Part shown: positions 18,715-23,783 of the stretch, in pieces
Layout of the letters: each line of letters opens with the position of its first letter
Numbering within the stretch: the first letter of the stretch is position 1
From: Cerioporus squamosus
Taxonomy: Eukaryota; Basidiomycota; Agaricomycetes; Polyporales; Polyporaceae
Reading direction: 5' to 3'
Length of the DNA stretch: 64,000 nucleotides
NCBI GenBank assembly: GCA_022592435.1
Contig: JABYQS010000042.1
Span: 124,001 to 188,000 of the forward strand
Made by a program: the position numbers and the translations under genes
The notes under the pieces: model-generated
Database searches by the model: none
What the model was told of the DNA's origin: nothing
What the model saw: only the letters and a program-made list of their open reading frames with translations

Positions 18715-20224
18715 ATGTCTGCACACAAGAACCTGATCCGTGTCCAGGCTTCCACCCAGAAGTACCCCTGGGGCAGGCAGGGCTCGTCCTCTCTGGCGGC
18801 CCAGCTCGCCTCTAATGCCATCGGCCATGGCTTCAAGATCGACGAGAGCGAGTCTTATGCAGAGGTGCGTACCCTCCTTTCCTGGCATGGCCGTAGCACT
18901 CGTGCTAATTAGCCTGACGACAGATATGGATGGGCACTCACACCAACGGCCCCGCGCATCTTTACGACGAACCCTCCAAATCACTGCTGTCCCTCATCTC
19001 CTCCGACCCCAAATTCTATCTCGGGAAGACTCTGCTCAGGAAATGGCCCTCTACTACCCATATTCCCTACCTCTTCAAGGTCCTCTCCATAGAGAAAGCG
19101 CTCCCTCTGCAGGCACACCCAGACAAAGGCCTCGGCGAGCAGCTGCAGCTCAAGGATCCCTCCAACTTCGTCGACTCGAATCACAAGCCCGAGATCGCTG
19201 TCGCCATCGGAGAGCCGCTGAGAGCTACCCGGGCGAAGACGGCAAAGTCGCAGGGAGATGAGGAAGAGGCGGTCGGCGACGCAGACACTGCCTTCACCGG
19301 GTTCGTCGGGTTCCGCCCTCTTGAGGAGATCAAGGCGGTCCTCCAGGCAATCCCGGAACTTGGCGAGGCCATCGGTGACTCGCAGCTCGTCTCCTCGTTC
19401 GTTCAGAACCCGTCCAAGGATTCTCTCCGCCAGATCTTTGGCAGGCTGCTCAAGCGCGGCGTGGAGGCGCGCGAAGAGGTTGCGAAGACGATCTCCCAGC
19501 TACAGGACCGCATCAAGCAGAGTGGGGGCAAGCTCGGCTTCCACGACAGCGAGGAACTCGCGAAGCTCGTACTGAAGGTGAACAAGCAGTACCCCGGTGA
19601 TGCCGGCGTGCTTGCGACCACCTTCTTCATGAACTTCGCCAAGCTGCGGAAGGGCGAGAGCATCTACATCGGTGCGGACGAGATTCACGCCTACCTCGAG
19701 GGCGGTAAGTTTCGCCAATTCTCGGGTTTCTGGCCGCCTCCTGACAGATCGTTTGCCTAGACATCATCGAGTGCATGGCCATCTCCGACAACGTCGTCAA
19801 CGCCGCGTTCGACTCACCAGACTCCCTCGCTTCCCAAGTCGACACCTTCATCGACATGCTCACCTACACGGCACGTCCCGTCTCGCACTGGTCGCTTCCC
19901 GCACAGAAGTACGAGCATTCGAAACTCGGACGCACGGTGAAGTATGACCCGCCCATGGAGGAATTCATCGTTCTGGGCACGTTCCTTAGCGCGAAGAAGG
20001 CGAAGGAGGAGCACCTGGGCGCCGTGGACGGCCCGACGATGGGCATCGTGACGAGAGGCAAGGTCAGGATTACCACGAAGAAGGGTGGGGAGACGGAGAG
20101 CTTGGAGCTCGACGAGGGCGCCGTGGTGTTCGTCGCTCCGAACAACGAGATCGAGGTGGAAATCCTCGGGGGACGCGGGCCAGACGAAGCGGGTGAGGTG
20201 TGGTGGTCGTTGTTCGGTGCATGA
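18715..20224 (+). CDS. PMI1: mannose-6-phosphate isomerase (type I)
   Basis: Zinc enzyme interconverting fructose-6-phosphate and mannose-6-phosphate; feeds GDP-mannose for cell wall mannans and glycosylation. Three exons (18715-18864, 18924-19704, 19761-20224) give 464 residues. Visible family blocks: QKYPWGRQG, ESYAEIWMGTHTNGP, PYLFKVLSIEKALPLQAHPD (zinc-ligand Gln-x-His region), NHKPEIAVAI (Glu ligand), the signature YIGADEIHAYLEGD, ECMAISDNVVNAAF, RPVSHWSLPA and a C-terminal cupin segment. Length is normal for fungal type I enzymes (about 430-470). Convergent with the lyase-kinase fusion gene, 189 bp apart. Confidence 0.96.
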
Positions 20225-20413: not shown

Positions 20414-23400
20414 CTAGACATACAGCCACTTTCCGCGCCTCGACGCCCACTGGGAGAGCTCCGTGTTGCTGATGCTCTCGAAGCGACGCCGGATAGAACG
20501 CTGGGAAGCGGAGCCGTCTGCACCATCCCCATTCGGCGTCATGGGCGGGGAAAGCGGGGAGAGCGGCTCAGAGTCGTCGTCCGAGTCGGCAGCCACCTCG
20601 TCATACGGCGAGAGGATACCAAGACCAGAGCCGCCGACAGCTGTGACGTACGCCTGATAGCCTGCTGCCTCGATCGACTTAATGAGCGACTGGAGCTTCT
20701 CATCCGGGAAATCTGGTGCGGACAGCTTGGTCAGTACCGCTGTTGGTAGGATGCATGGATTGTGTCTCACCGTCAGGAACGAGAGTGACGGCGCATCCTC
20801 CGCCTCCTGCACCGGTCAGCTTGGTGCTAAGACGGTAGGGCGCGCCGGCGGTCTTCGCGCGGATGACCTCGAGCGCCGGGTGTGAGACACCGAGCGAAGC
20901 GAGGTGGACGTGGTTCTCATCGATGAGAGACTACAGAGGATGGCAGAAGTGTCAGTGAAACACTTAGCATTCGATATGGCATTACACGTACCGCGAGCCC
21001 AGAAAGAAGAACATTGCGCGGGACTTCAGGATCCGCAAGTGCACGCCGCGCCTCGTTGCTGATCGTCTGGATAGCATCCAGCAGCTGGCCCACGAGCTCA
21101 GGCTCCGCTGCCTTCTTCCTCGCAACACCAGCGACGAGTGCCTTCGTGTCGCGGGGTACCTTCGAGTCGATGAGGAGGAACCGCAGCGACTTGAAGCCCT
21201 GGATTTGGTCCATGCCACTGCGCTTCCCGAACCCGGGGCGCACGTATGCAAGCGCACCACCAAAGACCGCGACGGAGTTGTCGACACCAGAGGGGTTCCC
21301 GTGCAGCACCTTCTCGGCGACGAATGCCCAGCGATTCGTCTCCTCTGCGATGTCTGGCGGGATGGCGCGGCGACCTCCGTGCGAGACGTGAACGTGACCA
21401 GGGTCGTTGCCGATGGCCTCGCGAGATGGTGGCGGGACCGCTGGGAGCTCGATGCGACCGTGCAGGATGAGAAGTGCAGTGGCTATGCAGACGGAGAAGG
21501 AGGCAGACGAACCAAGGCCGGCACCGATGGGGAGGCTGGAGCGACAGACGAAGTGGAACGATGGTCTGTTACATGATGTGTCAATCGCTGCCATTTACTC
21601 GCACAGAAGCATCTGAAGAACTCACCTGCTACCGCCAGAGGTCATCATCATGTAGAGATAGAGAAAGGCGATCGCTGCTGCGTGTGTCTTTGGGGGCATC
21701 TTGTCCTCTGATGGGAGAGCTCTCGACTTAATCGCGTCTACAACACGTTGATCCAGCGCGTCGGGATGGACTTCGCCATTTGGTATGGGAACGACAGCGT
21801 CCCATGGCAGCTCGTCAATGTCCCACTCGTGCTTGTAATTGTTAATGTCCGCGAAGTGCACCGACAGCTTGCCGTCATAGCGTGGAGATGTGAGGCCGTA
21901 GCAACGAAGGTCCACAGAGGCAGCCACAGCAGTCTGGAGGCCTATTCAACATCGTATACTCGAGAAACTGAAGGGAGACTACTTACAACACCATGGACGA
22001 CTGCGTGTTCACCAAACAGAATGACCTTGCCAGGAGCGCTGACAAACCATTCGCGGTGGTCCTGGGGACGGACAGTACGTGCCTCCCCGAGAGCGAGCTT
22101 CTCGACAGCCCGGCTAATGGGGTTCGGAATGCGGATGTAGTTGTTGGCGGCGAAGGTAATCGCGCCGGCTTCGATGAGAGCATGGCGCAGATCGTCCAAG
22201 AGATCCGCAGGGTCCTCGATACCGACACACAGGCGGATCAGATCTTCAGGAAGGCCACGAGCCGCACGAGTGGCCGGGTCGATGGAAGCGTGCCTGGCAG
22301 GAACGATTAGCGAGCTTGTTCGGAGAAAAGACACCCTCTGGAGAAGCTGAACTCACGACATCACGCAGGGCATGCTGATGAGACTGTTCACACAGCCAAA
22401 GCTTACACTGATGCCCCACAAACGAGTAGCTGCCACAATACGCTCACTCAACTCCTTGTCTCCAGTCTCGAAGGAGAGGACGGCGCCGTAGCCTGCGCAT
22501 GCATGCGTTGAGTATATGGGCTTACATGCAGAATCGTGTCGGACTTACCGTCAGATATCCGGTCATGAATATCCTTGCCAGGATGGTTGGGCAAGCCAGG
22601 GTAGTGAGTGACGAAGCCGAGCTTCGACAACATCTGCGCGACAAGCATCGAAGTAGATTGCTGACGGTCCATGCGGATAGCAAGGGTCTTCGTGCCGCGA
22701 AGAAGGAGGAAGGAGTCGAAGGGGGTCAACGCATTGCCGACAGAGTTGATGATGAAGGCCATTTCCTGCAAAGAAACGACATGTTAGCAAGACGTAAAGT
22801 GGGATGTCGTCTGCACGTCTAGACCGTACCTTGGCGAGGTCGTCGCGGTTGCACGTAATAACACCAGCCATCAGGTCATGGTGACCACTCAGGTACTTGG
22901 TGGCGCTGTCGTAGACGATGTCCGCGCCATGCTCCAGAGGCCTCTGGAGGTACGGGCTCATCATGGTGTTGTCGACCACGACGACCGCATCCTCGCACTT
23001 CTCCTTCACCAGTGCGCTGATCCCCGCAATATCGACTATCTTGAGCAAAGGGTTCGTCGGAGACTCCAGGAGCACCATTGCGGTCTTGCCAGGGTGCAGG
23101 TATGGGATCACACTCTCCGCCTTCGTCGTGTCAACATGGTGAACCGTGACGCCCATGTGCGTGCGGAGGTACGTGAGCAGACGGTTGGTACCGCCGTACA
23201 AGTCGTCGCCGGCGATAACCTCGCATCCTGGCTTGAGAAGGCGCGTAATCACGTCCAAAGCGGCCATGCCGCTCGACACCGCAAAGGCATGCGCGGCAGA
23301 CGAGATCTTCGCAATATGGTGCTCTGTGCAGAAGAGCGTCAGTCGAGTGCAATATCATACGATCCCTGGGGGTTTGTGCGGGCGTCCACATCCAATTCCT

Positions 23401-23783
23401 GCACTTCCTCTCGTAACAGAGTTTTCCTGCAGAACCAAGGGGCTCCACCAGCTCATCTGACAGAATCTGAACTGCACTAGCCAGAGCCTTCCTTCTCCCG
23501 CGATACGAGGACGGAACGGTGACTTACCTAGATGAGATCGCGTCGGGTTCCCGCTTCGGGTGTAATCATACTGCCCTCCGACGCCCTTGAACGTCGCAGT
23601 CTGGTAGATCGGCACGCTCGAGCTTCCGTGCTGATCCTTGTGATCCGCATCGGGAGAGTCGACGGTGGCACAGAGCGTCGAGAAACGGTACGGCTGTCGG
23701 GGTCGAGTCAGGGAAGGTGATTCGGGCTCCGGGGTCGGGAGGTCGTAGGCGGGCGCCTTTTTGACGGAGCTCGTCGCTGCCAT
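20414..23783 (-). CDS. fusion of cystathionine beta-lyase and mevalonate kinase (one reading frame)
   Basis: Nine exons (23528-23783, 22830-23323, 22549-22765, 22357-22492, 21987-22293, 21626-21933, 20992-21565, 20771-20930, 20414-20712) make one 916-residue frame. Residues 1 to about 430 are a PLP-dependent Cys/Met-metabolism lyase of the cystathionine beta-lyase (STR3) type: PIYQTATFKG, YDYTRSGNPTR, SSGMAALD, ESPTNPLLKIVDI, DSATKYLSGHHD (PLP lysine about residue 228) and a C-terminal DLIRLCVGIEDPADLLDDL. From about residue 451 mevalonate kinase follows: FVSAPGKVILFGEHAVVHG, PIGAGLGSSAS, EKVLHGNPSGVDN and KLTGAGGGGCAVTL, all GHMP motifs intact. Only about 20-35 residues lie between the domains, with no stop and no in-frame ATG. 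The lyase makes homocysteine from cystathionine; the kinase phosphorylates mevalonate for sterols. Whether one transcript is made needs RNA. Confidence 0.85.

Follow-up and report, generated by a model that had tools for sequence, protein, structure and literature searches.

A cystathionine beta-lyase and mevalonate kinase fusion gene of the metC-MVK (STR3-ERG12) type in Cerioporus squamosus

Fusion of cystathionine beta-lyase to mevalonate kinase is known in basidiomycetes from two independent reports of 2012. In the available part of the first, Liu et al. (PMC3342255) describe the fusion in 12 basidiomycetes, name it metC-MVK and give it as the only mevalonate kinase homologue there, with Laccaria bicolor lacking it. 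The second, a study of STR3 in the rice-blast fungus (PMC3468542), records in its accessible portion a C-terminal mevalonate kinase on all examined basidiomycete STR3 proteins except that of Postia placenta, and no stand-alone mevalonate kinase was found in basidiomycetes. It also states that STR3 and ERG12 are not clustered in ascomycetes. A fused unigene was later found in Pleurocybella mycelial transcripts (PMC3720577, 2013), and GME67_g of Lignosus rhinocerotis was described as a 918-aa fusion and the sole mevalonate kinase match (PMC4129116, 2014), as given in the available sections of these papers. The purpose of the fusion is left open in the accessible text of PMC3342255, PMC3468542 and PMC3720577. 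No enzyme assay of the fusion was found in the openly licensed PMC literature, represented here in part, and work in subscription journals may be missed. The yeast-type STR3 and ERG12 proteins each match one half of the fusion and are encoded by separate genes in ascomycetes.

The gene described here lies on the minus strand (23783-20414) of the window, the whole 64,000-nucleotide stretch of C. squamosus DNA that was analysed. With GT/AG splice sites picked by eye, it consists of nine exons (Table 1) and a 2751-base coding sequence for 916 residues followed by a stop. The protein is laid out as a cystathionine beta-lyase at residues ~48-411, a short linker, and a mevalonate kinase at ~451-850. 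The start, the end and exon 5 (22293-21987, minus), as claimed in an earlier note on this DNA, are all borne out by the spliced gene model. Adjoining the gene on the plus strand is a 159-residue open frame (19745-20224) with no Pfam match at E <= 0.001. By eye it resembles what we take to be the C-terminal part of mannose-6-phosphate isomerase.

Table 1. Exons of the fusion gene in window coordinates, with the basis of each assignment.
Feature	Position	Strand	Basis
Exon 1: start codon and lyase N-terminus	23528..23783	-	spliced gene model
Exon 2: lyase core, putative PLP lysine K228 in SATKYLSGH	22830..23323	-	gene model and alignments
Exon 3: lyase	22549..22765	-	spliced gene model
Exon 4: lyase	22357..22492	-	spliced gene model
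Exon 5: junction, with lyase C-terminus, linker and kinase N-terminus	21987..22293	-	gene model and alignment
Exon 6: kinase	21626..21933	-	spliced gene model
Exon 7: kinase with GLGSSAS and AEKVLHGNPSGVDNSV	20992..21565	-	gene model and alignments
Exon 8: kinase with KLTGAGGGGC	20771..20930	-	gene model and alignments
Exon 9: kinase C-terminus, acidic/Ser-Pro tail, stop codon	20414..20712	-	spliced gene model

The earlier note knew of no established fusion of these enzymes, which the two 2012 reports show to be wrong. As the fusion was already in print (PMC3342255, PMC3468542), the find, although real, is no novelty, so far as the available text of both papers goes. Like metC-MVK of Ganoderma lucidum and the other basidiomycetes in the accessible part of PMC3342255, the window protein has an N-terminal lyase and a C-terminal kinase; those fusions average about 886 aa against 916 here, and no difference of kind was found within that description. 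The STR3-kinase proteins of PMC3468542 share the architecture and, in the available portion, were surveyed only, with no work on the fused protein. GME67_g of L. rhinocerotis, also a polypore, differs from the window protein only in length and species on the details available.

Profile searches identify both halves. PF01053 (Cys_Met_Meta_PP) matches the window protein at 48-407 with 422 bits (cut-off 27), while GHMP_kinases_N and GHMP_kinases_C score 35.3 bits (cut-off 22.3) and 22.5 bits (cut-off 21). In P0001, the nearest relative, labelled Lentinus brumalis, the NCBIfam model TIGR01329 'cystathionine beta-lyase' scores 526.5 bits (cut-off 487.5) and is the sole model above its cut-off among 25 of 51 listed. 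The best solved relatives are the cystathionine beta-lyase 1ibj for the lyase half (E 1.6e-104) and the mevalonate kinase 1kvk for the kinase half (E 5.5e-66), which we take to be the plant and rat enzymes, respectively. PF01053, together with TIGR01329 in P0001, thus points to the N-terminal cystathionine beta-lyase of a metC-MVK fusion, and the GHMP domains and 1kvk match point to its C-terminal mevalonate kinase in the same chain.

Catalytic motifs, claimed earlier for both halves, are intact. In an alignment of 132 proteins (the window protein and 131 fetched ones, 860-960 aa long), 132/132 fusions share K228 in the lyase and K457, S592, S593, E657, D668 and KLTGAGGGGC in the kinase, and the conserved motif columns align with 1ibj and 1kvk. 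The catalytic roles of these residues are those we presume from the two enzyme families. Mean major-residue frequency in the alignment is 0.87 for the lyase, 0.76 for the kinase and 0.57 for the linker. Within the kinase, residues 627-642 of exon 7 include the His-rich stretch GHVHVSHGGRRAIP. This segment, DPGHVHVSHGGRRAIP, sits where the rat kinase 1kvk has a gap and is filled in 128 of the 132 fusions. A 16-residue kinase insertion is noted in 7/12 fusions in the accessible part of PMC3342255.

The architecture extends well beyond this locus. A protein search with the junction region, restricted to proteins of about 500-1600 aa, returned 540 proteins, and by our own count 119 of the 120 listed carry PF01053 and a GHMP-kinase domain, the exception being the 576-aa P0035. 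A Botryobasidium query gave 529 matches, with lyase and GHMP-kinase domains in 118 of the 120 listed by the same kind of count, Dacryopinax and Calocera being among them. Among the matches listed, many Agaricomycetes and some Dacrymycetes have a fused protein of comparable length. Going by species names, we place the listed fusions in Polyporales, Boletales, Russulales, Agaricales, Hymenochaetales, Auriculariales, Cantharellales and Dacrymycetes. Judged from sequence, such recurrence across the listed relatives is far beyond chance. The case that would have told against the fusion, separate genes always in related species, is contradicted by fused Polyporales relatives among the matches listed. 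That one protein holds both enzymes is backed by these relatives of the same architecture and by PMC3342255, PMC3468542, PMC3720577 and PMC4129116 in their available parts. The junction-search matches listed also include a fused Postia protein (P0014, 909 aa), hence the P. placenta exception, as it stands in the accessible portion of PMC3468542, looks like a matter of gene models.

When 261 sequences, the window protein and 260 fetched ones, were scanned for patterns, lyase-end and kinase-start were found in one chain in 137, the kinase start only in 30, the lyase end only in 15 and neither in 79; the patterns are strict, and many in the last class are fragments, non-basidiomycete kinases or sequences that the patterns missed. 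The spacing from lyase end to kinase start ranges from 43 to 111 residues, most commonly 66. In two more distant fused pieces, P0176 and P0180, the linkers are long and of low complexity, with 106 and 111 residues separating the motifs, which suggests that the tether length is free to drift. One or two Met residues lie between the motifs in 40/137 two-pattern proteins, so an internal start is possible in some relatives. Several relatives come from contigs close to coding length, namely P0003 (914 aa, 2922 bases), P0032 (908, 2915), P0044 (900, 2883) and P0103 (919, 2906), compared with a gene span of 3370 bases in the window. As these short contigs encode 900-919 aa without introns, they are probably cDNA from spliced transcripts, going by their lengths.

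A mevalonate kinase search returned 7282 proteins at E <= 0.001, and the best 120 listed include stand-alone kinases of Mortierellaceae and Ascomycota. In 13 kinase-start-only sequences, the sequence leading into the kinase is of lyase or fused type in nine; P0146, P0177 and P0206 begin inside the linker, and P0249, an ascomycete (Hypoxylon) protein, has an unrelated lead sequence. Several other Agaricomycete-like entries among the 120 listed do not reach the length of a complete kinase and could be fragments. A true split of lyase and kinase in some mushroom is possible.

In the C. squamosus assembly, which may be incomplete, a search with the kinase half found no other mevalonate kinase. Its only strong match is the fusion locus, followed by a galactokinase-like gene on contig C224, with the galactokinase-like motif RITGAGWGGC when read by eye, and then by an insignificant match (E 0.5). 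The lyase half has no other close match in the assembly; its remaining matches are weak as well as short, at 34-57% identity and E about 1e-5. The assembly thus appears to have no mevalonate kinase homologue besides the fusion, as expected of metC-MVK, and, with no second mevalonate kinase and weak lyase-half matches elsewhere, one gene probably carries both steps. Other PF01053 genes are present, of which one fragment resembles O-acetylhomoserine sulfhydrylase and is the sole one assigned a family; a family search with locus L004 gave none. Contigs C167, C634 and C282 (L003, L004 and L006) carry Cys/Met-enzyme genes with nearly equal scores, as if they were recent duplicates or uncollapsed dikaryon haplotypes.

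The junction bears on whether the fusion is an artefact. Exon 5 holds both the lyase block LIRLCVGIEDPADLLDDL and the kinase block FVSAPGKVILFGEHAVVHG, in a single frame and with no stop between, as the earlier note had claimed and as is read directly here. Successive Met residues fall at 367 and 549 with none between, hence the linker has no in-frame Met and the kinase no in-frame start of its own there. An assembly or base-calling error could in principle have joined two adjacent genes, the kinase truly starting at an ATG near 22050, and the earlier note had cautioned of a one-base error. The out-of-frame ATG does exist and sits just ahead of the kinase block, but it meets a stop after 13 codons, so a separate kinase start is ruled out. 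P0001 is identical to the window protein at 40/41 junction residues, with no indel, and at 881/916 residues overall, so a sequencing slip does not account for the junction. The same junction recurs in independent genomes, and its conservation rules out a sequencing or assembly error, a reading to which next to no probability is given.

Two further readings accept the fused gene and dispute its product. A single fused precursor could be cut in the linker to give separate lyase and kinase. Inside the protein, conservation is lowest in the linker, and in the structure model of P0001 residues 428-441 are poorly structured (pLDDT below 50), but these features equally suit a simple tether. No conserved cleavage motif was noted by eye, and the model itself is modest overall (mean pLDDT 76, pTM 0.54), with a confident kinase and a less confident lyase that is low in parts. 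It fits two units on a tether, although this is not proof, and cleavage is regarded as improbable. Alternatively, the kinase half alone may matter, with the lyase half a relic or scaffold, since the O-acetylhomoserine sulfhydrylase-like gene could make homocysteine directly. Against this, the lyase is the more conserved of the two halves, its motif residues are invariant, and the TIGR01329 cut-off is passed (as measured on P0001). A relic lyase is rated slightly less probable still than cleavage.

The gene is almost certainly the known basidiomycete metC-MVK (STR3-ERG12) fusion, encoding one bifunctional protein whose halves are probably independent on a flexible linker. We infer a single spliced mRNA that would be translated into one 916-residue protein with both activities. 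In methionine synthesis, the N-terminal half would convert cystathionine to homocysteine; in sterol/isoprenoid synthesis, the C-terminal half would phosphorylate mevalonate. Their substrates are chemically unlinked, and the two catalytic units would work independently, joined by the flexible linker. Most likely, the fusion is simply the ordinary bifunctional enzyme of the cell.

It is conceivable, if rather unlikely, that the fusion ties the methionine-synthesis step to sterol control. In Ganoderma lingzhi, a mevalonate kinase, g3941, is reported as a direct SREBP target (PMC9810662), in a text that does not contain the term cystathionine. Were such a tie real, sterol regulators that induce mevalonate kinase would raise the lyase too, and methionine, hence S-adenosylmethionine for C-24 sterol methylation, would be matched to sterol output. 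The window confirms an old and widely kept fusion of enzymes from unrelated pathways. Co-regulation or physical coupling of the two steps, if real, would tie methionine supply to sterol synthesis in mushrooms.
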